Shown in pieces: positions 39,326 to 56,137 of a stretch of DNA of 64,000 nt (position 1 is its first letter; each line of letters opens with the position of its first letter). Origin of the DNA: Phlyctochytrium arcticum (Eukaryota > Chytridiomycota > Chytridiomycetes > Chytridiales > Chytridiaceae); the NCBI GenBank assembly GCA_025602905.1, contig JAHLKI010000016.1, positions 654,571 through 718,570 of the forward strand, written 5' to 3'. The translations under genes and the position numbers were made by a program. The notes under the pieces were generated by a model. That model saw only the letters and a program-made list of their open reading frames with translations, did no database searches and was not told where the DNA came from.

Positions 39326-39495
39326 AAAGGTCATTCCCTGCTGTGAGATCTGTACCAAGATCTGTACAATATCCAACGTGAGAGCTGTGTACGCACTACC
39401 CAACGTCACCTTTGAGTAAGAAGAGCCGCATACTGCTTTCTTGACGAGCAGAATATAACCTATCCTTTCTATATTTCTTTTTGCCGCAGACCGTC

Positions 39496-41806
39496 ATGAT
39501 TGCTGGACCGTACAGTGATCTTATTAAAGACAGAGAAGCTTCATCAGCGATTCAAAGCCTGCAACATACCGGGCACATTACTCAAGATGGAAATAGTAGT
39601 AGTACTCAAGGTGGAAATAGTAGTACTACTATTGGGACCGCCCGGAGTGCCGATGCAGACGAACTGAAAGCGACAGCTTTTGACACCCTGGAGGAGCTCC
39701 TTACTCATGCAAAGGCGAATGCGGAAGCAAACGGTTTTGCTCTGACCAGAAGGAGTAACAATGAAAGGTTCTATCTTCAATGCGGTCGTTGGGGAACGCT
39801 CCGCGAGAAAAAGGAGGCAACCATGGAGTCTGATTCAAAGACGCGCAATCGTTCAAGCTTACGATGCGGATGCCAATTTCAGCAATACGTTGCCCAAGAC
39901 AAAAGAGGGTTAAAGGGCCCCAAAAATCTATGGTACTTGCACGAATCCTCCATTGAACACAACCACAACAATTCCGCACCTGTAGCCTATGCTGCTTATC
40001 GACAGTTCAGCAATGTACATAAGGAGTACCTAAGGCAGCACGCAAGAACAACGGTGAAAGAGCTGGTTTTGTCATTTCGTAAAACCTTTCCGGGTCATCC
40101 GGTAATCGATAAGGATATTCGCAACTTCCGGACGCTTGAGCAAATGGAAGCTGCGAAGGGCAGATCTGCTATAGAGTGCCTCTTGGACGGACTTCACCAA
40201 CCCGAATCTAGCTATATGGTTAGCTACCAAACCAGTGATGATGGTGCTCTTACCCACTTGTTTTTCGCTCATGAGAAGAGCGTTGAGAAATTAAGGCAAT
40301 TTCCGGACGTACTAATATTGGATTGTACTTATAAAACGAATAAGTGGCAAATGCCGCTTTTCAATATCCTCGGCATAGACAGCACTGGAATGTCCTTTAC
40401 CGTAGGTTACGCGTTCTTACGGGGTGAGACTGAGGAAGACTACACTTGGGCCTTACAGAACCTAGCTGGCCTTCTGGTAGGCAGCCGCGGGATTAAGACA
40501 GTGTTCGTGGACTGCAGCCGTGCTTTGATGAATTCCTTGGAGGCGGTCTTCCCAGGTATATTCCCAGCCGTTAATGAAAATGATTTGCGGTCTTTTAATT
40601 ACTTTGCTCTAAGGTCTTAATGTTCTACTATGTATTTTTCATATCGTGGAAAACGTGGGAGCTCAACTGCAGCGTAAATATCCTCACATATCGGACGAAG
40701 ACAAGCAAAACATTCTTACTCTATGGAACGCTGTCGCCTACGCTGCATCCTTGGAAGATTATGCTGCAGCTGTTGGAGCCATCCGCAATGTACTCGATGA
40801 CTACTACCCAGCGATGCGAATGTACCTAGAGGATACATGGCTTGTGCATCATAAACGGTTTGTAAAATTTTGGACAAGCCAGGTATTAACGCTAGGCATT
40901 AGAGCCACATCGCGAGTCGAAGGCTCGCATCGCTGCCTCAAAGATTGGCTTCACAATGGGGTGGGAGACTTTTTGACCGTATTTTCCGCCATGGATACGT
41001 TCATCAACAAGCAACTCATTGACGTAGAGAACCAATACTTAAGAGAAAAAGACAGATTGTCCTCAAAGATGCGCGAAATCTTAGACGAGACACACCAAAT
41101 TCGGGAGCATGTTTCCAATGTGACCTTCAACGATCACCTCCACGCCAATATCGAGGAGGCTCGCAAGCAGGGTCCTCTGCAGCAATGCAATCACCAATAC
41201 GCTGTCACAATGGGCTTACCTTGTCCCGATCAAATTCGCTATGATTACAACCTTACGATTCCGCTGTCGGCTATTCATCCCGCATGGAGATATGATCCTT
41301 GCAATGCCAGTATTGATTCCTACTTTCTCCCCGACGCGACAACAGATTACCGTGCGCGTCTTGTCGCTGAGCTGGCAGCTGTTCAAAAGCGTTTCGATGC
41401 CCTACAAACAACATCTCAGCGACAGCGTGCGGTGCAACAGCTTAGCCAGGTGGGAGTGATCAGCGGTTCTGTCCTGAACCCGGTACGCACCAGGCGCGTC
41501 GATGTATTGGCGGAGCATCGGGCAGCATCCAAACGTCAACGGATCGACACATCCACCCGTGCGGATCCTACTTTATCGGCGCATGTTGCGAGGGAGCAGC
41601 AGGAGCGTGCCGCCTCGTCCTCCGCCGCTAACAGGCAGAAGCCAAAGTGTAGCGTATGTCGGTCTGAAGACCACAAGGCAAACCGGTGCCCTGAAGCTCG
41701 CAGGAGAGAGGCCGCGCGTATTAATGCTGCCTGCGGAGTGAATGAACCGATTGAAGAGAAGATTGAAGAAGATATTAGTATCCTTATTGACATGTCACTT
41801 AGCTAG
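39496..41806 (+). CDS. MULE transposase, copy 1
   Basis: 750-aa transposase in two exons, 39496-40555 and 40614-41806, with a 58-nt phase-1 intron (GTATAT...AAG). The start is the ATG shared with copy 2 (MIAGP). A FAR1/WRKY-GCM1-type zinc domain lies at about residues 55-165 (LRCGCQFQQYVAQDKRG through the EHNHNN His pair). The MULE DDE core follows: LILDCTYKTNKWQMPLFNIL carries the first Asp, and VFVDCSRALMNSLEAVF carries the second after the FTVGYAFLRGETEEDYTWAL segment. The catalytic Glu region is in exon 2 (SRVEGSHRCLKDWLHNGVGD). A SWIM-like CNHQYAVTMGLPC motif comes next, and a CCHC knuckle (CSVCRSEDHKANRC) near the C-terminus. The intron position is the same in copy 2, which supports the model. 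No disabling mutation is visible. Confidence 0.9.
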
Positions 41807-42250: not shown

Positions 42251-43764
42251 CTACTCGCTCATCGCCAGGTCCATGAGTATACTCACATCCTCGTTAATTG
42301 AATCGTCTAGACCACCAGCGCTAAGGTCACTCATGCCATTAACATCAACAAAGTCGTCCACATTACCAGCAGCACCACTACCAGTAGGCGTCACAGCAGG
42401 TAAACCACAGGCAGCCCTAATGCGCGCAGCCTCCCTCACGCGAGCTACTTCGCATCGCTTTGCATTGTGGTCTATAGATCCACACGCGCTACATTTGGGC
42501 TTCGCCCTGGTAGCTGCCTTGGCCGTTGCGGCACGCTCCTGCTGCTCTCTAGCTACATGCGCCGACAACGTAGGATCCGCACGGGTTGAGGTGTCTGTTC
42601 GTTGGCGTTTGGAAGCGTGATGCTGGGCCATAGTGTCGGCACGCTTGTTCCGTACCGGGACCAAGACGGATCCGCTGATGATTCCAAACTGGGTGAGTTG
42701 TTGCAGGGCACGCTGCCGTTGGGATGCCGTTTGCAAGGTATCAAACCGCTTTCGTACAGCAGCCAGCTCAATTTCTAGTCGCTCATAGGGATCCATTGTC
42801 GCATCGAATGGACAGTATGGATCAATATTGGTATCGCTAGGATAATATCGCCAAGCCGGATGGATGGCTGACAGTGGGATCGTCAGGTTGTACTCGTAGC
42901 GAATTTGGTCGGCGCAAGGTAAACCCATTGTGACGGCGTACTGGTGATTGCACTGTTGCAGAGGACCCTCCGTGCGAGCTTGGATAATACTGTCATAGAG
43001 GTGGTCATTGAAAGTAACGCGCGAGACATGTTCCCGAATCTGATGGGTCTCATTCAAGATTTCGCGCATCTTCGTACTCAAACGGTCTTTTTCGACGTCG
43101 AATGCGTTCTGGATGTCGGTGAGCTGCTTGTCAATAAAGGTATCCATAGCGGCAAATATGGTCATAAAGTCGCCGACCCCATTGTGAAGCCAGTCTTTAA
43201 GGCAGCGATGCGACCCTTCAACTCGGGATGTAGCCCTAATTCCCAGCGTTAGAACCTGACTTGTCCAAAACTTCACAAACCGCTTATGATGGACGAGCCA
43301 TGTATCCTCTAGATACATGCGTATCATTGGGAAATCGTCATCAAGTTCGTCCCAAAGTGCTTGAACAGCGGCCGCATAGTCCTCAAGGGTTGCAGCATAG
43401 ACGACTGAGTTCCAAAGTGTGATAATACTTTGCTTGCTTTCGTCCGTAACATCAGGGTATTTGCGCACGAGCTGGGCGCCGACGTTCTCCACAATATGAA
43501 AGATACAAAGCAGGACACTAATTCCTGATAAGAAAGTAAATAACCCAGCACAAATAAGCCTCGTTTAAGCTGAAAAGATACCTGGAAAGATCGACTCCAA
43601 GGCATTCATCAAAGCAGGGGCACAATCCACAAACGCAGTTTTGATTCCGCGGCTGCCTGCCAAAAGACCAGCTATATTGTTCAACGCCCAAGTGTAATCC
43701 TCCGCAGTTTCGCCTCGCAAAAACGCGTAACCTACGGTAAAAGACTTTCCAGTGCCGTCCACAC
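42251..43764 (-). pseudogene. MULE transposase copy 2, 3' part
   Basis: Distal end of exon 1 (43764-43582), a 57-nt intron (43581-43525, GTATCT...CAG, phase 1) and exon 2 (43524-42251). It encodes the segment from DGTGKSFTVGYAFL through the second catalytic Asp, the SRVEGSHRCLKDWLHNG Glu region, the SWIM-like CNHQYAVTMGLPC and a C-terminal CCHC knuckle (CSACGSIDHNAKRC). The frame continues exactly from the 5' part at 52676-53438 if the inserted DNA and one CACAC copy are ignored. The gene is broken only by the insertion. Confidence 0.9.
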
Positions 43765-43828
43765 TGACACGGTGCATAGACCCGAATTCCCTCTAAGAGG
43801 GAATTCGGGTCTATGCACCGTGTCAGTG
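43762..43828. repeat. Perfect 67-bp palindrome at the insertion end
   Basis: Two 33-bp arms around a single central A at 43795. The left arm starts CACTGACACGGTGCATAGAC and the centre is CCCTCTAAGAGGG. Its first three bases fall in the CACAC duplication; the rest is inserted DNA. It would form a long hairpin. Confidence 0.95.
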
Positions 43829-44017
43829 ACTGGGTTCCTATATAGATTTGACCTGGTCAAGCGCTTAAGATGCCGCCCGAGCTAATAGTATATATACATA
43901 GTTATATGGTTACATAATACAGATCTATCCTATTAATAGAACTTTGACCAGATCCTGACCAGATCCAAGATCGAGTCAAATCCGAGGGCAACCGCCCATC
44001 TTGCCTTGAATCTCACA

Positions 44018-44356
44018 CTAATCTATCTGTATCACTTCTGACTCGATGACGTCATCCGCCGTCTCTATTATATCGATATTCCGAACCCACACTTCATTCG
44101 TCGTCAGATACAATTCTCTGACTTCCTCTGGCATATTCGTCACGTCTACGCGGCGGGATGTCAAGATCTTGAACTTTAACTTCTTCAAAATTGTCCCTCG
44201 CTTGATTTGATGGCTTGTTATATTCCGCAGCTTCATTGTCTTCTTGATTGTCGCTAACAAGTCTGTATGTTCCTTTATCAGCTTCTGCGCTTTCTTAAAC
44301 TCTTCCGATTGATCCAAGTCTATCAGACGTTCCATCTTCTTCTCCAGGTAATCCAT
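44018..44356 (-). CDS. 112-aa orphan protein
   Basis: I do not recognise it. The N-terminal 45 residues are helical and rich in Glu and Lys (MDYLEKKMERLIDLDQSEEF). The middle is basic (HQIKRGTILKKLKFKILTSR) and the C-terminus is acidic. It is the first gene inside the left end of the insertion and shows the AT-rich codon use of its neighbours. Expression is unproven. Confidence 0.45.
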   Translation of the reverse strand: MDYLEKKMERLIDLDQSEEFKKAQKLIKEHTDLLATIKKTMKLRNITSHQIKRGTILKKLKFKILTSRRVDVTNMPEEVRELYLTTNEVWVRNIDIIETADDVIESEVIQID

Positions 44357-44582
44357 TGATGCTAACTTGATGCTATTTGGCGCTAACTTGATTCTAACTG
44401 TGGATATCTGAGGCAGGACCGTCGCTTTATATACTCGTGATTGTATCGATACCTTTTCTTTCTATGGATCGGAAAGACTCTCTTGCTCCTTCACTGCCGC
44501 TTATTCGCCCCGAGGTCCCATGCTACATGTCGCCACTTGTCGCTACTTGTCGCTACACTTTTAGCAAAAAGTAGGAAAAATA

Positions 44583-44624
44583 CCACAAACGTAATAAACG
44601 TTTAAGTGTGTTTTACGTTTGTGG
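44583..44624. promoter_or_regulatory. Inverted repeat CCACAAACGTAA ... TTACGTTTGTGG
   Basis: Two perfect 12-base arms separated by 18 bases (AT-rich, containing a further AAACGTTT palindrome). It lies in the only sizeable noncoding gap of the AT-rich part of the insertion, between the minus-strand 112-aa ORF and the plus-strand receiver-like ORF. It could be a shared control element or origin-like site. Confidence 0.5.
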
Positions 44625-45037
44625 AAAAATCACGACTTCTTCAAATTGCTGAATATGATGAAGTATGTGGAAAAGTGATTAGATGACCCTCACCGCAACA
44701 AAACGCAACGGGGAAAATCTTGGACATATGACTCACACTCTTGGTCAGACAATACCATCTCTATTCTTTATTGATTCGGGGATGATTCTTTAGCTATTCG
44801 AATCTATTCCTCTCCTTTGACTGGAAGAAGAACAAGAACAGAATATTATGTATTCTTTCAACTCGTCGACTCGAACAATCATGTAGTTATAAGTCAAAGA
44901 ACTCTTTTTTCTTTGAGATACACTGTGAGATATTATTAGTGTCCAGTTGCAACATTCTTTACTTTCCAATATTATTTTTTTCTGTACATGACTGTCCACG
45001 TTTCTTTTCGCCTCTAATAGTAAAACACGCCATGTAA

Positions 45038-45428
45038 ATGATCATCGTAGTCGACGACAATAATTTCACTAGGAAACTTGAAAATGATTAATAGCATTAC
45101 TCAAGAACAAGTCTTGCTATCATCTACCATGATGCTTTTCGACGTATTCAATGATAATTACGATGATATAACTTATGTCTTTACTGATATGTTACTCAAT
45201 GAACATATTCAGGATCCAACCTTCACGTATAAACAGGAAGGGCTGAACCTGATAGCGTGGATTCGCCAGGCAGAAAAGGATAACATGGTCTCTGAAGGAG
45301 TGAAAATTATAGCATTCTCTTCTGATGCAACATTGAAGCACAAAGCATTAGCTGCCGGAGCGGACCTGTTCTACACCAAGCCCATCACAAAAAAAGATAT
45401 TATCGATATTCTAAAACCAGAATCATAG
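45038..45428 (+). pseudogene. Two-component receiver domain, broken by a frameshift
   Basis: The product resembles a single CheY-like receiver. The first frame from 45038 reads MIIVVDDNNFTRKLEND then stop, which is a receiver beta-1 strand with its acidic pair. The next frame from 45078 continues with a DDITYVFTDMLLNEH segment carrying the expected phosphoacceptor Asp. It then shows the Ser-Ser/Thr region (IIAFSSDATLKHKALAAGAD) and the conserved Lys in TKPITKKD. A +1 shift near 45080 separates the two parts. It may be a genuine mutation, a sequencing error, or recoding. Alternatively the second ORF is used alone, which would lack the acidic pair. A free-standing receiver is unusual in a fungal mobile element. 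Confidence 0.75.
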
Positions 45429-45473
45429 ACGCAAAACAAATAAGCTTTTTTCTTTCTTTAAGGTATTCTGGTC

Positions 45474-45803
45474 ATGAGAAAAAATAAATTTAGAATCGTT
45501 TCAGAATCCGGCGTGGAGATTCTTGTTTGTCGAATGGTCATTTTTAATGAAGATCAGTTGTCTAGGATTATATACAACTTGAAAGGCAAAGGCGAACATT
45601 TTTTCATATTCGTGCCAATTAATGTACTTAATCGAAATTTATTCGAAAAGATTATTTCAATATCAAGCGTACTGACCCCCCGTAAGAATAAGCAGCTTAG
45701 ACGTGAATTCCTGGAATCAGGATACTTGAATATTTGTGAAAAATGTGTTGCGTTGGGTTGCGACAAAGACAATTCAATTGAGTTGCTCGAATTGATATTC
45801 TAA
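45474..45803 (+). CDS. 109-aa orphan protein
   Basis: I do not recognise it. It starts 45 bases after the receiver ORF on the same strand. It has alternating hydrophobic strands (IVSESGVEILVCRMVIF and FFIFVPINVLN) and a late CEKCVALGC cluster of three Cys. Its last four bases overlap the end of the convergent fibre-like gene, a compact arrangement typical of viral genomes. Confidence 0.5.
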   Translation: MRKNKFRIVSESGVEILVCRMVIFNEDQLSRIIYNLKGKGEHFFIFVPINVLNRNLFEKIISISSVLTPRKNKQLRREFLESGYLNICEKCVALGCDKDNSIELLELIF

Positions 45804-48800
45804 AATTCTAGAAATTGAACATCAATTCGCGAATTGACATCCATGGAAACGTTACCGGCAGCATAGAGTTGAAATGTATGGTTCCCGGGTGTTAAATTTC
45901 GAGAAATAAATTGGAAAGGGATTGGTATATGAACATCGGCTAGGTTGAAAAAGAACACGAATGATTTTACCAATATGTTATCGATTTTGATGGCAAATGT
46001 GATGTTCTGTTGTGTTGTCGTTGCAAAGGGTGATATACACCCAGTCCAAACCTGGGTCCCTCTTGTAGTAGTAAAGTTAACAAGATCAGATGAATATGAG
46101 CTATCACTGAATACTGTAGTTGCAACAGGCAATTTCAGATTGACCCCATTTACAGTAAGTGAATTTCCCACAGTGAGACTATTCGCAACATTTACATTTC
46201 CATTTTGAAGAATATCGAGCGACGATGCGAGACCGCCAGTAGCAAACCGAATATTGCCTGTTGATGTTCCAGAACCATTAGAGCGTAATACTATATCACC
46301 CGCAAGTGAATTGGAACAAAAATGTGTATTCGTTGCTGCTCTCCCGATTAGAGCAGTTGAAGCACCCCAATACAAGGAACTACTAGCTGATGAAGAAAGA
46401 TTGATATTCGTTCCTACCGTCAATTCAGTACCGACATACAGTTTTTTGGCAATACTAGCACCACCTGCAATTTGGAATGCCCCAGTATTGATTGCAGTTG
46501 CATCTGTTGTGGTCGGTATATTGACAATTGATGCTTCAATCCTTAATGGAAGAAAAGTACCGTTACTCTTAATGGTTGATTGGATAACACCGAAACCTTG
46601 TGATGTGTCATACACCATGAAGAGACCAGGTGTAGTTATAGAAGTTGTGAAAGGACTGGAATGTCCCTTGACATAGAGATATGAACTCGTAGTGAGCATG
46701 GTAGTATCTAGTTTTGCAAAGGGTAGAATACCACTGACATCACTTGAGGCAAGGTCTATCATTGACTTGTTCGCCAATGTGCCAAATACAGGTTTACCAG
46801 GTAATGTGCTCCATTGAATATCTAAAGTAAATTTTATATCATCAGCGTTATAATCTGCTATTAAAGGTTGAAGTGTACTTGTATCAATTTTAGTAATTGG
46901 GAGAATACCGGTTACCTCGGTTGTTGAAAGGTCGATAGAATTCTTCAAGGACAACGAACCGAATACTGGCTTACCTGTGACATTCCCCCAATCAATATTA
47001 CCGCTAGATGCCGTACTCGATAATCCCAAAGTTGTCTTGAATGATGCTGCATTTCCCGAGGTGATCAAAGGTTGAAGTGTACTTGTATCAATTTTACTAA
47101 TTGGGAGAATACCGGTGACTAGTGAAGTCGACAAGTCGATTGTGTCAAGATTTGATAATGCTTTCAACTGACCTATGCGTGTCTCAATGGGTGTAAAGCG
47201 GTTGTCTATCGCAGTTTGTCTCGTATTGTAGGTCGATGTCAATGTGTAATTTGAGAGGGGGATTGCACTGATTGATGTATTTACGAAAGATTCTGTTGCA
47301 ACCTTTAAAGTCTTTGTAAATATATCATCAGTGGCATAAAGTTTTTTGCTGACCGTTACAGCACTTGTTCCCAATCGCATCAATTCTTGTAATGTTCCGC
47401 TCGACCCTGTTGAAGCAGAAATAACCATTGACGAGCCATAAGTTCCATCATCTATTGTAGAAATTTGACTCGTAACTTTCCCATTCAATGGAGCAAACTT
47501 AATACTTTCTGTGGCATTACTGTCTTGAACAAGAGACAAATTGTCTAAATATTTCGCTGCTCCAAATCCTCCGCTCTGACCATAAATCACAAGTGTTATA
47601 TTCGTGGATAGAGGGACATTGCTCGAAGCATTTGTCCAACTCGTTACCAGAATATTATTGACATAGAGAAATGCGGTATCGTAAACGACCTTCATCCTTA
47701 CCGTTGCAAAAACGTCTCGAGGCAATGATGCAGCGACTTCTTTGTATGTTCCGTCTGGAGTATGCAAGCGAGTGTAGTTAAAATATCCGGAAAACGATGC
47801 TGCATAACCACCACAGTTTATTGTAATACCCTCATCTTGCCGAAAGGAAGAATATAGCAGATCACATTGAACCGTCCAGTATCTTCCTAGATTCGGGATT
47901 GTATAGGCAATGTTCCCATTGGAATACGTTTGGTTGTTTTGTTGAAGAATTACATATTTGTTTGTAGTGTCATAAGTTGCATTCCCGGACAACGTACCTG
48001 TCGGAGTGCTTGTGAAATTATCCGTAAGAATAGTAGTTGTAGTATTATCAACACCAATTAGGGAAATTGCATCTTTGATGAGATTTTGCTTCAAAGTAAT
48101 GGCTGAATCAATAGCAGTTTGTCGTGTATCGTAAATGCTCTGGGAAACCTTTGTTGCAATTGAAGCATCAATGGCAATTTGTCGCGTATCATAAACAGAT
48201 TGCGACACTTTTGAAGCAAGTCCGCTTGTTAATGATATATTCAAAGCATATACACTCAAATCAGGTGCGCCAGATACGTTGGCATATGGTAGTTTGTTAT
48301 TTGAATCTATTACATTTTGTTTCAATGCAAGTCCGCTTGTTAATGATGTATTCAAGGCATAAGGTGTCAAATCTGGTGTACCACTCACAAGACTATATGG
48401 TAATTTTGCAGAACTTGTAATGAGATCCTGTTTCAACGCGAGATTCGGAATATTCGACAAAAAACCGTAATCGAGACGATTCGATGCTGATATTATATTC
48501 TGTTTTGTGGCGATTGAAGAGTTGATGTTTCCCAAGTCTATATTCCGATTTAGAAAAACAGACAAATCAGGCGGTGTTGAAATATTCGAATATGGAATTT
48601 TGTTGGTACTAGTGATCTTTGGTTGATAATTGGTTGCAATATCGGTTTCAACACCTTCAATTACGGAATTTACAATTTCTAGATTTTGTATAATTGGATC
48701 AATCAATTGACTCACGAGGCTCACGGTACTAGGCTGAATTATTTGGGAGTCATACTGGCGCAACATGTCTAAATTCACCGCTTGTTGTGGGTATTCAGTA

Positions 48801-50830
48801 GCAATACCTAACCATCCACATTGAGGCGGCGTATCGAAGAGCAACCTTGTGACATCGCAGCCGTTTGAATCAGGTAGAGTCACGGTTATGACATTACTAC
48901 CTGGCTTCATTTGAATATTGCCGTTTGAATCCAATATGGGATTTCCATTCACATCCTCCTCGCGTTTCCTTTCTCTCCCTAGAATAGTGATGAATCCGGC
49001 ACCAAGGCCGGTAAGGGCACCGCCTAGCATTCCAGAGCCTATGGCAGAAATAGCCGAACTAGCTGACCCTATTACACTACCACCCGCGCCAAATAAACCA
49101 TTTAATGGCCCTACAATACCGCTCAAACCTCCACTGACTGAAACGACCTCGCCTCCTCCCGATTTCAGGACTTGATTCGCACCTTCTCCTGTTTGCTCTT
49201 GAATGGGATCTTCAGCTGTTCTTTCTGTTTTGAAACTGTCTATGGTTGAAATTGTATAACCGATGCCAGGGGAACCAACCAATATCACGCCACTACCTGC
49301 CGTCAAGGAAAATGAATTAGAGATTGTCTTTCCCGCTACCGTAATCCCATTACCACCAACATATGGTGATTCATCAGGTGCCTCGTATTCATAGGAACAG
49401 GAGATGGTGTTGCCAGTGATCTGAATATTATTTCCTGCTTGGTAGTCGCCTTGGAACGTATTTCCTATACGCTTGACTCCATTAGACGCTGACAAATTTT
49501 CTTCAATGTGAGTCTTGGTGCTATCCATTTGAAGCCCACCTGATACTGTAAGATCCAGACTGACCTCATGTGAGGAATTCTGATAAAGACCATTGCTGAA
49601 AGAGAGCCCGGATGAAATCTTACCTTGAGAATCGACTCGTATAGACGAGTTGTCTACCAAGGGACTTGGGTTTACTGAAAGATTCATATTCGTGTCAACC
49701 GCTAAACTCGCATCAGTATTCAATTCAACTATTTGGTCTCGAATCACAACTGCTCCACTCCCCTGGTACACACCCTTCACGTATTCGGCAGTTGTTGCCT
49801 CATAGTCACTTGGATTGCTATTTGGTGATAGATTCACATGTCCCACACTAAGTTCATTCAGTGTCTCTGAATACGTAAAGTCACTAGTTCTATTCAAACC
49901 TGCAATCCCGTTGTCATAAGGAATCTGCCCTAATCCCTGACTTCTAAACGCCAGCTTGTTACCCGTCTGCTGAAAATTTTCATGGTCCACCTCGAGTTTG
50001 ACAAGTGATCCGTCAATGGATTCGGTAATATCTCGATATACTGATATGGCGCCGGCTCCCTTGAGACTCTTGGAAACATCCTGTGTTTTTGCTTTTAATT
50101 TGTTATAATCTACTTCAAGTGTATCTTCATCAATTCGTAAGGAGACTTGACCGTCGATTTCATCTAATGGGTATTCGAATACCAACTTGTCGGGAATAAG
50201 AGCCTTCAACTTTCCACCGTCTATATCCATGGTATCATCATCAATCTTGAGTGACAATTTGTGACTATTTAGAACATTGTAATAGAACGGATCAGAGATT
50301 TTGAGACTCAACCCTTTTGCAAATAGATTCAAATCACCGTCAAGTATAGATTCTGCGTCTTCCATATGAGATGCATACCTTAATTCAATTTCATCGTCGT
50401 CATTGTAGAAGAGCGGACTGTTCAATTCAGGTGGATCCTGTTTCTTGGCTGCTAATTGATTTTCATCGTTAATAAATAATGAATCATTGTCATACTGAAG
50501 AGACACCTGATGGTCGTCGCTTGAATACTGAAGAGGTAGACGAACGTCTGCCTCAATGGTTGAAAGATTTCCTTCGGAATCTAGAACGAGACGACTATCA
50601 TCGTAAGCAAGAGAGACGTGTGCGTTACCCTGTGTCAGAGTGGTTTCAATTGGCGCTTCTGAGGATAAAGAGTTTATTTTAAGTATTCCATGTTTATTCT
50701 TAACAGTGGCGACATCGATACTGGAATATTCGTCTCCTTTCAATTCGCCGCTTATGAAGCTGTTTTGAATATTTGTATTGTCAAGGGTGCGAATACCCGA
50801 GGCATTGCGCGAGTTAATACCTGACATCAC
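45800..50830 (-). CDS. 1,676-aa fibre-like protein with adenovirus-type shaft repeats
   Basis: Single exon; the largest ORF in the window. Residues about 70-260 are beta-spiral repeats like adenovirus fibre shafts, for example PLQYSSDDHQVSLQYDNDSL and LSLKIDDDTMDIDGGKLKA, and weaker copies run to about 460. Residues about 550-615 are Gly/Ser/Ala-rich and hydrophobic (GIVGPLNGLFGAGGSVIG), resembling a membrane or glycine-zipper segment. Residues about 745-920 are phage-like tail-fibre repeats with an ALKQNVIDSNNKLPYANVSG pattern. Residues about 925-1100 look like a jelly-roll, lectin-type module. Three further repeats of the IDLSTSLVTGILPISKIDTS type lie at about 1200-1380. The C-terminal 130 residues form a beta-rich tip. 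A trimeric receptor-binding fibre is the natural inference. The exact viral group is open. Confidence 0.85.
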   Translation of the reverse strand: MMSGINSRNASGIRTLDNTNIQNSFISGELKGDEYSSIDVATVKNKHGILKINSLSSEAPIETTLTQGNAHVSLAYDDSRLVLDSEGNLSTIEADVRLPLQYSSDDHQVSLQYDNDSLFINDENQLAAKKQDPPELNSPLFYNDDDEIELRYASHMEDAESILDGDLNLFAKGLSLKISDPFYYNVLNSHKLSLKIDDDTMDIDGGKLKALIPDKLVFEYPLDEIDGQVSLRIDEDTLEVDYNKLKAKTQDVSKSLKGAGAISVYRDITESIDGSLVKLEVDHENFQQTGNKLAFRSQGLGQIPYDNGIAGLNRTSDFTYSETLNELSVGHVNLSPNSNPSDYEATTAEYVKGVYQGSGAVVIRDQIVELNTDASLAVDTNMNLSVNPSPLVDNSSIRVDSQGKISSGLSFSNGLYQNSSHEVSLDLTVSGGLQMDSTKTHIEENLSASNGVKRIGNTFQGDYQAGNNIQITGNTISCSYEYEAPDESPYVGGNGITVAGKTISNSFSLTAGSGVILVGSPGIGYTISTIDSFKTERTAEDPIQEQTGEGANQVLKSGGGEVVSVSGGLSGIVGPLNGLFGAGGSVIGSASSAISAIGSGMLGGALTGLGAGFITILGRERKREEDVNGNPILDSNGNIQMKPGSNVITVTLPDSNGCDVTRLLFDTPPQCGWLGIATEYPQQAVNLDMLRQYDSQIIQPSTVSLVSQLIDPIIQNLEIVNSVIEGVETDIATNYQPKITSTNKIPYSNISTPPDLSVFLNRNIDLGNINSSIATKQNIISASNRLDYGFLSNIPNLALKQDLITSSAKLPYSLVSGTPDLTPYALNTSLTSGLALKQNVIDSNNKLPYANVSGAPDLSVYALNISLTSGLASKVSQSVYDTRQIAIDASIATKVSQSIYDTRQTAIDSAITLKQNLIKDAISLIGVDNTTTTILTDNFTSTPTGTLSGNATYDTTNKYVILQQNNQTYSNGNIAYTIPNLGRYWTVQCDLLYSSFRQDEGITINCGGYAASFSGYFNYTRLHTPDGTYKEVAASLPRDVFATVRMKVVYDTAFLYVNNILVTSWTNASSNVPLSTNITLVIYGQSGGFGAAKYLDNLSLVQDSNATESIKFAPLNGKVTSQISTIDDGTYGSSMVISASTGSSGTLQELMRLGTSAVTVSKKLYATDDIFTKTLKVATESFVNTSISAIPLSNYTLTSTYNTRQTAIDNRFTPIETRIGQLKALSNLDTIDLSTSLVTGILPISKIDTSTLQPLITSGNAASFKTTLGLSSTASSGNIDWGNVTGKPVFGSLSLKNSIDLSTTEVTGILPITKIDTSTLQPLIADYNADDIKFTLDIQWSTLPGKPVFGTLANKSMIDLASSDVSGILPFAKLDTTMLTTSSYLYVKGHSSPFTTSITTPGLFMVYDTSQGFGVIQSTIKSNGTFLPLRIEASIVNIPTTTDATAINTGAFQIAGGASIAKKLYVGTELTVGTNINLSSSASSSLYWGASTALIGRAATNTHFCSNSLAGDIVLRSNGSGTSTGNIRFATGGLASSLDILQNGNVNVANSLTVGNSLTVNGVNLKLPVATTVFSDSSYSSDLVNFTTTRGTQVWTGCISPFATTTQQNITFAIKIDNILVKSFVFFFNLADVHIPIPFQFISRNLTPGNHTFQLYAAGNVSMDVNSRIDVQFLEF

Positions 50831-51453
50831 TATTTACTTATAAGAAATCAAATGAAATAAAAGCTCTGTCTCTTAACACAATTGCGTTAACAGGCAATAG
50901 CGAATCAACGACAAATTTGACATCCATGGTTTCTCAGATTCGATGGTACTTGGCCGATTGATGGTCTCGGTTGTCGGTCGATCGGAAGATAGAAGACGGC
51001 GAAAAGAAGTGAAAAAAAAGAAGCTTTGAGGGAGTTAGCAATCAGCGAGCAGGCGGAATGTGTTCAGTCAAAGTCAAATGTTCATCGGCCACGCCGCAAA
51101 GTATTGCCTCCCGACGTCCAGAAGCCCCAGCAGGCATAACGTGCCCCGATAGATACCGCTGTGCGCTCAGAAGAAGGTACGACCAAGCGACCCCAACTCA
51201 CTCCAACTCTAAGCACCTCTCGTCCCCGTAAACACAGCAACCATCCAGTTTCATCGGCGAACCAGCAAGCAGCTGCTCCAGCAGGACGAGAGATGCGAAT
51301 ACCCATCCTGCTCCCTCATTCAGCGTCGGTGGGCCAGGCACTTCCCGAAAAGACACCAGGCCCCAGCAGGTCCTTCAACGAAGCCCCTCGATAGATACCC
51401 GGCGTCCGTTCCTAGATAAAGTACACATCCCACTCATACGTCCACATCTTTGA
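50831..51453. other. Junction between AT-rich and GC-rich parts of the insertion
   Basis: Leader of the fibre-like gene (a TTATAAGTAAATAG stretch just upstream on the minus strand could be its promoter), followed by an abrupt change to GC-richer sequence near 51 kb. No convincing gene. Confidence 0.5.
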
Positions 51454-51878
51454 ATGAGATCGCGGGACAGTTCCTGCGGTGCCCGGAGATACCGTCACTA
51501 TCAGCTTCCAAGCGCCGTAGGCCGCAGCGAGCACTTTTACGTGCCCCGTGAGATGCCACAGGAACCAAAGATGAAGCAGCGGGCAACAGCCCCAGCAGAA
51601 CCGCAGGCAAGAAACAGACCTAAGCTAGCCAACGCACACCCACCTTTTTCGCAGTCTGTGTTGCGCGCCAAGCTGTCCAGCTCCGGAAAACAAGAGTCAG
51701 AGCAAGAATCCCGAATCCGGGGCAAGATTGTATGGCCCGTGTCTGCAGCAGCGCGACGCGAGGCAAGCAGGGGGAATGTGGATGCTATAGTAACAAGGGA
51801 GGCACAGCACACTATCACTCATACCCTCAGACCTTCCCACGCAAAAATCTTACGCATCTTCCAGTTCGAGAGCTCGAC

Positions 51879-52610
51879 ATGTCCTGCACTTCAAAAACTG
51901 CGAGATTTCAGGCGTATGACTTTGTCAGCACTCTATCAGCTGCAGCGACTCTCCCCCCCCAAACTGACGACTTCTGGAAGAATCTGATTCAACATATCGG
52001 CCAAAACCCAAACCTCTACACCGAACGCGTATCCTGTTCCTGCCCTCGGTCCAGAACAACGATTCTCGATCTTGACCACCTTGCGTCTGATATTCAAGGT
52101 TCCATTCAGCATCGCGTCACTGGCCTGGATTTGTCAAAAGCTGGCCCCATTTTTATGAATGCCGCCGCCAGGCTGATAGCATCTGCACACAACCTACCCA
52201 TTGCCAGAGTCGAATCAAGGACAAAAGGAGAGAAGACACGCGCCGTGTTCCACTGGGACTTCGCCCAGGATGCTGTCAATTTCACCAAAAGCTTCGTAGA
52301 GAGAAAGAAGTATGGGAAGGCAGAGAAGTTCTTCCAAACCAATCCCTGGATTGGCGGACCTGAGGCCCAAAACCAAGGAAACCCATCAGCGACATCTACC
52401 GCATCAGCCCCATCTGGCTCTTTGATCCGCACCACCCCGACCACCGCAAGTAACTTGGCTATCACCCCCGCAGCAACTGCAGTACTTCTCAAGGCAAAAT
52501 ATCCTCATGTTGAAGAATGGAGACTGGCGAGTCTGGCTGACTCCATGCACACAGTGGGGAGGGAGGCGGCCAAAGATGTGTTCAAGACCATCTTTGGTGG
52601 AGATGTTTAG
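51879..52610 (+). CDS. Orphan protein of about 243 aa in the GC-rich end of the insertion
   Basis: The open frame runs from 51732 (292 aa). I prefer the internal ATG at 51879 (MSCTSKTARFQAYDFV) because the earlier part is Cys/Arg-rich and unlike a protein. It has a helical FWKNLIQHIGQNPN segment, an ILDLDHLASDIQGSIQHRV stretch and a basic-aromatic KTRAVFHWDFAQDAVNF motif. A Ser/Thr/Ala linker and a C-terminal helical domain ending in DVFKTIFGGDV follow. I know no family with this layout. The stop is 60 bases from the right end of the insertion, so it may be the element's own accessory gene. Confidence 0.5.
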   Translation: MSCTSKTARFQAYDFVSTLSAAATLPPQTDDFWKNLIQHIGQNPNLYTERVSCSCPRSRTTILDLDHLASDIQGSIQHRVTGLDLSKAGPIFMNAAARLIASAHNLPIARVESRTKGEKTRAVFHWDFAQDAVNFTKSFVERKKYGKAEKFFQTNPWIGGPEAQNQGNPSATSTASAPSGSLIRTTPTTASNLAITPAATAVLLKAKYPHVEEWRLASLADSMHTVGREAAKDVFKTIFGGDV

Positions 52611-52675
52611 CGTAGTGCACGCATGTATATATGTACAAAAATATTTTCAATTAGGATCTGCACTATAACACACAC

Positions 52676-53438
52676 CAAGGATGTTGAAAAGCGGCATCTG
52701 CCACTTGTTGGTTTTGTATGTACAATCTAAGATCAGTACGTCCGGGTATTGTTGCAATTTAGCGATGCTCTTTTCATGCGCAAAAAATAAGTGCGTTAGA
52801 GCACCATCATCGCTGGTTTGGTAGCTAACCGTATATTTGGACTCAGGTTGATTCAGCCCGTCCAACAAGCACTCTATGGCAGATCTGCCCTTTGCTGCTT
52901 CCATTTGCTCCAGGGTGCGAAAGTTGCGGATATCCTTGTCAATGACTGGTTGATTCGGAAAGGTCCTGCGGAATGACAGAACAAGCTCTTTCACCGTTGT
53001 TCTGGCATGCTGCCTCAGATAATCCTTGTGCTCATCATTGAATTGCCGATATGCGGCAAATGCAACGGTTGCGGAATTCCCGTGGTTGTGCTCATTGGAG
53101 GATTGGTGCAGGTACCACTTATTCTTGGGACCCTTTAACCCTCTCTTGTCCTGCGCGACATACTGCTGGAATTTGCACCCGCATCGCAGGCTTCCCCGGT
53201 TGCGCTTCTTCTGATCCTCTGAGTCTACGGTGGCTTCCTGCTTCTCGCGGACAGATCCCCAACGAGAGCAACGAAGATAGAACTTCTCGTTGTTGCTAGT
53301 TCTTGTGAGTGCAATTCCATTTGCTTTGGCTTTAGCCTTGGAATACTCGAGAAGCTCGTCAAGAGAATTGAAAGCAATCGCATTAGCTGCCGCACCAGTT
53401 TCTGCAGTCGCAGAATCTGTGGACGGTCCAGCGATCAT
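52676..53438 (-). pseudogene. MULE transposase copy 2, 5' part
   Basis: Starts at the ATG at 53438 (MIAGPST) and covers the FAR1-type zinc domain (LRCGCKFQQYVAQDKRG and the EHNHGN pair) and the first catalytic Asp in LILDCTYKTNKWQMPLFNIL. At 52671 the frame runs into the insertion and stops a few codons later. The rest of the gene is at 42251-43764. The ORF otherwise matches copy 1 without frameshifts. Confidence 0.9.
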
Positions 53439-53742
53439 GGTGAGCTACAACAAACGGAAGGAAACCCATCCTGTTTAATGCGTCGCCATCGGCGGAAAGA
53501 CGTAAACTGGGGTTCTTACTTTTAGTGATGCGTTTGGAAAGTGTGTATGTGCAGGTAGATCCTCACGAGGGCGCTGTGCGTCGAGAATCTAGAGATCTCG
53601 AGCTGGATCTGGAGCGGAGATTCAAGCAACGCAGAGACAGTCGATATTTCAGGTGGCTGTGCGACTGTACGATTTCTAGCCCGACTGTACGATTCCTAGT
53701 CACGGCCAAGGCGGAGAATATGATTATGTAATGCGGTAGCGC

Positions 53743-54010: not shown

Positions 54011-54897
54011 TATTCAATTTTTGAGCCGTGGTCACTGGTCCACGTAGGTTTTGTGCCTGGTATCCCCCAGAACAAATAAAATCAATGACTTTTCCGGTAA
54101 AGGAACCTTCCAAATCCGGGCAGTTCATACTTTGGCACTAGCTACCCCAATCTCATCAATGATTTCAATGACTTTCTCCAGGCTGGCAACGCGTTGGTCA
54201 AGTTCCCACACATATAACGGCTCTTTGATGCTTACTCACGAATTTCGATTCCGGGGTAAGCTTTCTCCGGTGAAGACACATATTGGCTTTCTGAGAACCG
54301 CTGATGGGTCGAACTTAAACTCCATTTTCTCAGTGGGTACACACACTTTGCTCAACCGAACTCAGGTGAGTTGGGTATGCTGGGGGTTTATCCCTTAGTC
54401 CCCGTACTGGACCCAGCGGGAACGTATGCAACTTTTAACGTAAGCACAACTAGTACGCTCCGTCTAATTCTTTTCCCCCACCGACGCTCTGTATTTTTAG
54501 TCCCCTTCCGCCTCTCTCAACCCAATAACACATATACACAACTACCGGTAGATACGCAATTCTCCTTTGACGCTAAACTGGACTATGGATAAACCCTCAG
54601 CTCTGTATAGCCTTTCGGGGCTAGGTTCCCTTGCGTACGGTTTAACGCGTCTCGGTTTGCCGGGTTTGAGCGTGAAATGCGTAAGACAAGCATCTTCGCA
54701 TCTCAAGATCTCCACAATCCTCCCACAGCACAACGCATACAGTTCAGAACGATCAACAACACACAACACACATCTCCCTCCCAAAAGCGACTAACGGCTC
54801 CCTCCTAAAAACTACTGAAAACTTCAATCTACTGACAAATCAACACACAACACCATCAACCAAACCAACGTCCGTAACAACACATATTTGCGTCAAA
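54011..54897. other. Unassigned stretch before the Helitron remnant
   Basis: No complete gene. Short frames here may include decayed upstream parts of the Helitron protein. I could not place a Helitron 5' TC end. Confidence 0.4.
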
Positions 54898-56137
54898 TTG
54901 CGTGCCTCATGGAACAAAGAAAAAGTGGAACAAGCCGGCGGCGTGCACATCGAGCAGTTGCGAGCAGAGTTTGAACGTCGGAAAAAGAGGGCCGCGGGAG
55001 TATATACAACAAACACGAATGGGGACAGTGCAGCGGCAGCCGTAATGAGTTCAGTCGATGCCAGCAGTGCGAAAATGGTAGGGTCCAATCAAGAAAGGCA
55101 GGATATCCGGCGAAAAGTAGACTCGATGGCGGTGCAAATGGGGGCACCGTCTTTGTTTTTCACGTTCTCTCCAAATCCGAGGGGATATGCCACATTAGCG
55201 GTATGGTCGAAAGGAAATTCCACAGATAACGCAACAAGCCTGGACGAACTTCAAACCCAAGATTTCCCGGCGATCGACGAAATGAACACCATTGTTGGGC
55301 AGAACCCATTCTTGCAAGCAATTCGGTATCAATACAACATGGAAGTTTTGATGAAATACGTTTTCGGATGGGAGAAAAGACCATACCGCCAGAACGGAGG
55401 ATTTGGCACGACAGAGGGGGTATACTTCGCGAAAGAATCACAAGGCCGTCTCGCAATCCACGCGCATGGGCTCGTATGGGTCGGTGGTATGCCCAGAACG
55501 CAGAAGGAGTGGCAAAAGAAGTTTGAAATACCAAGTTTCAGGAACGCATACGACGACTGGGCGCAGAAATTTTTTTCACACGAATTGCCAATTCTCGAAT
55601 TTGTTGCTCTAAAGGACGGGATGGCCCTCCCCTGCCTAGCGCCGGAATGCTGTGGAGAGTTGGTACGAAAAAAACTTGGCGCCAATGAAGGGAGGGACCT
55701 CACCGCCCGTTGTAGCCGAGTGCAAACTGTGTCAACAATCATTCAATTCAGATGAAATCGTCGACGGACTTATCGATTTCGTGGCCAACGGAATTCCTGA
55801 GGCAGACCGGTTGTAGACGTCCGTCCAGGTAGTCAAAGAATTGAGAGCCACATCGCGGGGGTTCGTCCATGGGGACCGGGCCGCGTTAAGAGCGATCCAA
55901 ATGACTCGTAGCCTTCAGATGGACCAGGTACACTCGTATCGCCATTGTGAATCTTGTGACAAGAACCAAAAAACGACGGAATGTAGATACCACTTCCCAC
56001 GCAGAGAAGAACCTTCTGCCGGATTCGACACCAAGGGCAAGGATATATTTCTGGATATATTTGTGATGACCGGGATACAGTATGTTGATGTTAAGCCGGA
56101 ATGGTTCATTAAACTTAGGGTGGCAACTAACTACTAG
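54898..56137 (+). pseudogene. Helitron Rep/helicase N-terminal fragment
   Basis: The frame 54898-55755 matches the Helitron helicase-like N-terminal region: QMGAPSLFFTFSPNPRGYA, QNPFLQAIRYQYNMEVLMKY, and ESQGRLAIHAHGLVWVGG, which carries the HUH endonuclease motif as HAH. After a frame change, 55841-56137 contains QVHSYRHCESCDKNQ and a CRYHFPRREEP motif that belong further along the same protein. The PIF1-type helicase domain is not visible. Several stops and frame changes show that the gene is decayed and truncated. Confidence 0.75.

Follow-up and report, generated by a model that had tools for sequence, protein, structure and literature searches.

The 64,000 nt window analysed here, corresponding to positions 654571-718570 of contig C16 in the 31.5 Mb, 91-contig assembly of the chytrid Phlyctochytrium arcticum (elements elsewhere in the genome are named below after the contig on which they lie), contains two copies of a Mutator-like element (MULE). 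The transposase exon of the second copy is split by an 8,906 bp insertion at 43765-52670, which is bounded by TGACACGG...CTATAACA and hence has TG...CA ends. Very probably, the inserted DNA represents a sub-genomic, non-autonomous fragment of an endogenous polinton-like virus (PLV), of the group termed clade I here, which integrated recently and in a single step into the transposase gene. The features of the locus, including the target-site duplication (TSD), terminal inverted repeat (TIR) and open reading frames (ORFs), are:

39445-41806, plus strand: MULE copy 1, uninterrupted, the reference copy
42254-43764, minus strand: MULE copy 2, remainder of exon 1 and exon 2
43760-43764: left TSD, CACAC
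43765-52670: integrated unit of 8,906 bp with TG...CA ends, very probably sub-genomic PLV sequence, 99.8% identical to the C18 and C41 elements
43765-43825: terminal palindrome, predicted to form a hairpin (single-stranded DNA fold -37.3 kcal/mol, z -16), with its outer edge as the integrase terminus
43765-44802: portion of the TIR, around 1 kb, common to the full-length elements
44018-44461, minus strand: ORF located in the TIR, function not assigned, 112-147 aa
45051-45428, plus strand: response-regulator receiver-like gene (PF00072 1.3e-4, below the cut-off)
45462-45803, plus strand: ORF, function not assigned, around 110 aa, also present in the C26 and C23 elements
45800-50833, minus strand: fibre-like protein, a 1677-codon stop-to-stop frame with adenovirus-fibre similarity
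50860-52670: GC-rich R segment, left limit approximate, ending in a single-arm clade II-type terminus
51624-52610, plus strand: R-segment ORF, 292 aa from the ATG used, 328-codon frame
52657-52670, minus strand: right terminus reading TGTTATAGTGCAGA, 14 nt identical to clade II palindrome arms
52671-52675: right TSD, CACAC
52671-53444, minus strand: MULE copy 2, N-terminal part of exon 1, the host transposon target

The original prediction, made from the sequence of the window, described a discrete mobile unit carrying viral structural genes that splits MULE copy 2 and leaves a CACAC duplication. This is confirmed as a real insertion: the borders are exact, the TSD is present on both sides, and removal of the insert with one TSD recreates the empty site, restoring a 322-codon open frame over the junction. 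Chance is not a serious alternative, because the empty site is restored in this way and termini like those at both junctions recur at other places in the genome. The further statement that the transposase is open end to end without the insert is correct for the first exon only, as in both MULE copies an intron-like break divides the gene into two frames; beyond the break, copy 2 continues in a second frame of 437 codons, and copy 1 has a similar layout (391 and 397 codons).

The left part of the insert is AT-rich, as had been noted, with a GC content of 0.36-0.45 across 44-51 kb relative to 0.46-0.52 in the flanking 1-kb bins (40-44 and 53-55 kb), whilst the bins of the final 1.7 kb are at 0.49-0.55. 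The proposed viral-type fibre protein corresponds to the 1677-codon frame; the match of the window copy to PF06536 is weak (E 1.9e-4; 21.6 bits, just under the cut-off of 22.7), but the similarity to adenovirus fibre is clear in relatives (P0009 2.3e-7, P0010 4.8e-14), and no matches were obtained in PHROGs or PDB sequence searches. The receiver-like gene has an N-terminal reading frame disrupted relative to the C18 and C41 copies (131 aa), the former of which matches PF00072 at 1.1e-7; a phosphoreceiver (response regulator) gene is found in a eukaryotic PLV, intact in C18 and C26. The left end of the insert forms a perfect palindrome (43762-43828) that was absent from the original prediction, as were the related copies in the genome, and the unit itself is without a second TIR, an integrase or a capsid gene.

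A search with a 1-kb piece of the left end gave 79 genome matches, a large share of them as inverted pairs around 19-33 kb apart, and the whole unit corresponds, at 99.8% identity, to the right third of endogenous PLVs of 25-33 kb. Compared to C18, there are six mismatches and three gap openings across 8,906 bp; C41 is also colinear, and C15 has no mismatches and one gap opening over the 3,313 bp compared. The left border recurs at both ends of C41 and at the right end of C18, and the right border lies inside C15, C18 and C41, so that the refuting condition set with the original prediction, no further copy sharing the borders, applies only in part. A census based on a terminal pattern (described below) and protein matches identified nine elements with palindromes at both ends, 15.8-33 kb in length. 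C41, C18, C26 and C23, which have TIRs of 1-2 kb, were read whole, and C1 was read nearly whole, in stretches.

The C18 element encodes a capsid protein scoring below the Pfam cut-off (Capsid_N 4.6e-4, 20.2 bits; cut-off 24), the model of which (pLDDT 60) nevertheless matches the PBCV-1 capsid in Foldseek (E 2e-12, probability 1.00, TM 0.51), along with other double jelly-roll (DJR) capsids (best E 2e-12). It also encodes an A32-type packaging ATPase (Pox_A32 7.8e-10), an integrase with a C-terminal chromodomain (rve 8.1e-12, Chromo 9.4e-14) and a PrimPol-D5 protein (Prim-Pol 2.7e-15, D5_N 2.1e-7); the family match for the last comes from C18 alone, with ORFs having the same start in C41, C26 and C23. 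C26 encodes D12-type and C5 DNA methyltransferases on the basis of family matches, and ORFs in C23 share their starts. Genome-wide, there are 57 capsid matches, fragments and distant clades included, and 103 integrase matches, many to the chromodomain only. As judged from their sequences, the full-length relatives thus possess the characters of PLVs: a DJR capsid, an A32 ATPase and a size in the range of 14-40 kb, with TIRs and an integrase.

The comparison originally drawn with large DNA virus insertions does not hold, as the unit belongs, in truncated form, to an endogenous PLV family with multiple copies; a giant virus fragment was ruled out, the capsid relatives being PLV-type chytrid proteins and the full elements 15.8-33 kb long with TIRs. 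Just seven such relatives were found among 5.8 billion proteins, including two from Spizellomyces, two from Powellomyces and P. arcticum itself. Searches of IMG/VR for environmental relatives gave one weak 60-residue match, and none by capsid profile, helicase or integrase. It had also been suggested that the unit was non-autonomous or used an unknown enzyme: the former is borne out, but the latter is not, as full-length members encode an RVE-chromodomain integrase and have 5-bp TSDs, and can therefore supply the enzyme missing from the window unit.

An exact 5-bp TSD was found directly outside the TG...CA ends in all nine elements with two palindromes (C41 GACAT, C18 GTCAG, C26 GTAAC, C23 GTTAC, C15 GACAT, C2 AGCTC, C4 CCGTT, and C3 and C1:1308k, both TGCCG), as well as in the clade II element C9 and the window. 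As C3 and C1:1308k share flanks, the nine elements represent eight independent sites; these two elements (C1:1308257-1324039, 15.8 kb, and C3:1361088-1387132, 26 kb) have identical flanks in the bases read, and so may be a duplicated locus or one site in two versions. From the position of the TSDs, it follows that the whole opened palindrome is integrated. The targets that could be recognised are other mobile elements, namely the MULE in the window, a Ty3 element (C18) and, from its coordinates, a pPolB-type Polinton (C26). A preference for such targets is only suggested, because, of eight flanking ORFs searched against Pfam, six had no family match; the integrase chromodomain would fit with targeting of silent chromatin, by analogy with chromoviruses. 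The nesting in C26 (C26:366725-401019), of a clade I PLV within a pPolB-type Polinton, is judged from matches to capsid, integrase and polymerase on either side.

The palindrome at the left end is one of a large set. The pattern GGTGCATN{15,45}ATGCACC, which forces the outer seven base pairs and leaves the inner pairs free, occurs at 33 sites in the genome, relative to none for the reversed control. Thirty-one of these are palindromes, 30 of which are perfect outside a loop of 0-5 nt and one of which has a single mismatch; the other two are chance matches. They are about 47-69 bp in size and comprise 15 different stems. Within a stem family of six distinct rows, four of the 28 pairs show variation, which is compensated in every instance; 100% of the cells are paired (0 of 500 shuffles) and four pairs have two-sided changes (2 of 500 shuffles), whilst further pair types are no more numerous than in the shuffles (470 of 500), and slid controls pair 31-43% of cells. 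The motif TGNNRCGGTGCATA has 71 genome sites (three for the reversed control), of which 62 are both arms of the 31 palindromes and nine are single. When 204,004 bases were scanned, palindromes with arms of at least 14 nt and loops of at most 5 nt were found only at 11 element ends.

Loops are present in both orientations. Those at the two ends of an element agree on the plus strand in five of six informative cases, short of significance (p 0.11), and the rule that both loops always agree on one strand was dropped, C23 being the exception. In C18 the arms are perfect, though its two TIRs differ by 11%, and both C18 and C2 have unlike stems at their two ends with the TSD still intact. Thirteen of the 31 palindromes, including that in the window, belong to elements for which only one palindromic end was seen or found. 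Elements with other ends will have been missed, because the palindromes were sought using motifs taken from few elements. In IMG/VR the pattern was found on eight contigs, seven of which pair 10-16 of 16-31 positions; the eighth (15 of 17 paired, 14-bp arms, 6-nt loop) was rejected, as, judged by eye, its ORFs resemble those of a tailed phage in which the hairpin follows the capsid gene.

The right end of the window unit is of another type. Its R segment also occurs in C15, C18 and C41 (four copies), and partly in C17. The border matches the termini of clade II, for which both flanks were seen in one element only: C9 has an integrase of a second clade (41% identical), TIRs 99.9% identical over the 1,967 bp compared, the TSD GAGAG and terminal palindromes, perfect on the right and with one mismatch on the left, the arms of which begin TGTTATAGTGCAGA. 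The window right border is exactly this sequence, as a single arm. With one mismatch allowed, the motif has 29 genome sites (controls 0 and 1), consisting of 20 arms of ten palindromes, three halves or ends with a decayed partner, four single arms and two isolated occurrences. The four single arms lie in the R segments of C15, C16, C18 and C41; a clade II-type terminus hence lies inside viruses of the C18, C41 and C15 types, upstream of the fibre gene. The only other matches to the R gene are at positions 1418536 and 1421502 of the clade II element C4:1407-1431k. As the border motif is a clade II arm and the R gene matches only inside a clade II element, the right 1.7 kb is probably what remains of a clade II element within a clade I virus, rather than host genes. 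The alternative that the right end is a cryptic integrase site was dropped once clade II ends showed the same motif.

Two further observations concern clade II. At C17:430583-430634 is a solo 52-bp clade II-type palindrome with the TSD GTCGC, apparently an integrated telomere with no virus between, and at C9:368425-406126 and C18:111503-148608 clade II integrase genes form outward-facing inverted pairs, suggestive of long TIRs or inverted dimers.

The window copy therefore pairs one telomere with a single-arm clade II terminus, and hence it appears to be a sub-genomic unit that was integrated. On this account the left end would be an intact clade I telomere and the right end a clade II-type terminus; the RVE-chromodomain integrase of a full-length virus would most likely have acted in trans on the two TG...CA ends of linear viral DNA, joining them to a 5-bp staggered cut. 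Prior insertion of a complete 25-kb virus, with subsequent deletion of its left two thirds, is very unlikely. Deleted and rearranged copies do exist in the genome (the C1 inverted dimer, C20 and the half palindromes of C13 and C1), but the right border falls exactly at the TG...CA motif of a clade II end with CACAC abutting it, and the breakpoint of such a deletion would need to coincide precisely with the TSD belonging to the opposite end. An assembly chimera is scarcely credible: near-identical copies elsewhere may mislead an assembler, yet this would not account for the exact TSD, the restored exon or a right border that is not a free end in any other copy found.

More tentative is what the palindromes represent. 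They resemble the hairpin telomeres of poxvirus type, and in the free virus DNA they may be closed hairpins, copied by PrimPol-D5 without a protein-primed polymerase. The pPolB family (PF03175) has 14 matches in the genome, none of which is inside the nine two-ended clade I elements, C9 or C4:1407-1431k, and ends that are palindromic, covary, occur in two orientations and lack pPolB would be what hairpin telomeres predict. The wider proposal is that this PLV lineage dropped protein-primed replication, that its closed, flip-flopping hairpin telomeres are copied by PrimPol-D5, in the manner of poxviruses and asfarviruses, and that the opened palindromes are the att ends for the RVE-chromodomain integrase, with sub-genomic units and solo palindromes also being integrated because each arm, even a foreign clade terminus, is read as an end; we consider this to fall a little short of an even chance. 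Somewhat more doubtful, but still a substantial possibility, is that the palindromes, rather than closed hairpin telomeres, are paired integrase-binding sites whose symmetry is maintained by cruciform-templated repair in the host genome. This would explain the outer motif TGNNRCGGTGCATA on both arms of all 31 palindromes and the solo palindrome at C17:430583, and closed ends would not be visible in integrated DNA in any case. It sits less easily with whole stems that vary beyond the integrase motif (15 different ones), with loops in both orientations, with the perfect arms of C18 despite its divergent TIRs, and with carriers in which pPolB was not found and, in clade I, PrimPol-D5 is present.

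Also considered as the source of the hairpins was p481, a protein of around 481 aa encoded by C18 and other elements and read by eye as a tyrosine recombinase, which could act as a protelomerase. The putative catalytic residues R, K, R, H and Y, again read by eye, are invariant in the four copies aligned, and of 16 genome matches, 12 are in elements with the GGTGCAT palindrome, one is beside a half palindrome (C13) and three are elsewhere. This role is nonetheless unlikely. No resolvase or integrase family was matched in Pfam, NCBIfam or PHROGs; comparison with TelN of phage N15 gave no credible match (hhalign probability 4.6%); the model is poor (pLDDT 48.7), such that the fold is not interpretable; and no protein-database relative was found at E 0.01, a weak negative given that the search listed no annotated copy from the P. 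arcticum genome either. Furthermore, on sequence evidence p481 is not required for palindromes, as C9 has palindromic ends and no p481 match.

A number of observations weigh against integration of a hairpin-ended, sub-genomic viral DNA as set out above. The right end of the window unit is without the inner palindrome arm of intact clade II ends, and is therefore not a standard terminus; another 8.9-kb unit standing alone between the two borders was not found in the genome, and the R gene is linked to clade II by a weak match (27% over 78 aa, E 4.3e-5). Partial decay is seen among the palindromes of clade II, and there are half palindromes cut at the centre in C13 and at C1:1512701, C18:115177 and C18:129757. 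Incomplete copies without a 5-bp TSD (C1:1509786-1512701, C20, C14, C1:1736774 and the right break of C1:1324339) imply that some derivatives arise otherwise. The pPolB contrast is one-sided, because both flanks were seen for only one clade II element and the ends of pPolB elements are not among the data.

Polintons, or Mavericks, and adintoviruses have a DJR capsid, an A32 ATPase, an RVE integrase, TIRs and adenovirus-fibre similarity, all of which are shared by the P. arcticum elements. Polintons in the strict sense have protein-primed ends, pPolB and a 6-bp TSD; the palindrome-ended elements differ from them in that pPolB was not found and the TSD is 5 bp. Hairpin telomeres are known in poxviruses, asfarviruses and chloroviruses; those of vaccinia have been described (PMC8956199). 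The likeness to these systems extends to terminal palindromes that are perfect or nearly so, loops in two orientations and a D5-type domain. However, the P. arcticum palindromes are known from integrated copies only, are about 47-69 bp in size, have an outer edge that doubles as the integrase terminus, and come with no identified resolvase; in contrast to the phage N15 type of system, there is no recognisable protelomerase.

Endogenous PLVs in chytrids are already known from Spizellomyces; the palindromic, hairpin-forming ends appear to be new. The S. punctatus group was described in 2021 (Bellas & Sommaruga, PMC7805220), and that paper reports, across 16 eukaryote-integrated elements, TSDs of 5-7 bp in three and, wherever repeats are present, a tyrosine recombinase or an RVE integrase, as well as a chitinase in 52% of the S. 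punctatus group. The chytrid host, integrated state and TIRs are common to both sets, and the P. arcticum capsid is 44% identical over 99% of its length to SPPG_02195, presumably the capsid gene of the published element; P. arcticum differs in having many copies in a single genome, and no chitinase domain was found in the subset of element ORFs scanned against Pfam. The endogenous virophages (EMALEs) of Cafeteria (Hackl 2021, PMC8547959), a different host, are similar in having TIRs, an rve integrase with a predicted tyrosine recombinase (in mid-GC types) and short TSDs, mostly 3-5 bp.

In word counts, neither hairpin nor palindrom occurs in the main texts of PMC7805220, PMC8547959, PMC10120064 (which excluded fungi from its genome set), PMC4642659 and PMC12220804, and PMC12747079 mentions terminal hairpins once, for giant viruses. 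Among the titles listed for chytrids and polintons, PMC7805220 alone treats chytrid PLVs, the others being judged by title; no title among the matches listed for polintons and palindromes concerns palindromic PLV ends, and none of the literature naming P. arcticum is viral by title. Perfect, covarying palindromes at the ends of a PLV population within a single fungal genome were hence not met in this literature, though a 2024 supergroup review lay outside its coverage and a prior description is possible.

This PLV family has colonised P. arcticum many times, and its palindromic, hairpin-forming ends may explain both how it is copied and how it inserts. If the hairpin reading is correct, it would place the hairpin-telomere state among polinton-like viruses, where the ancestor of giant viruses is sought, and a PLV clade with hairpin-like ends and no pPolB detected makes the switch from protein-primed to hairpin ends testable. 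The system also shows an integrating virus shedding non-autonomous pieces that act like transposons.

Some other arrangements were found in the course of this analysis. At C1:1324339-1343380 is a 19-kb inverted dimer, the arms of which are 99.96% identical over at least 5.6 kb, holding capsid genes and pieces of MULE; its right arm is without a telomere, and there is no matching TSD at that break. Head-to-head dimers of this kind would be expected from hairpin-ended genomes. C41:135187-144850 contains three extra tandem copies of a 2.6-kb unit, made up of the R segment and the start of the fibre gene, which may reflect amplification or an assembly effect. Within the window, downstream of the MULE at 54685-56137, are Rep/helicase-like ORFs that, judged by eye, resemble those of a Helitron.

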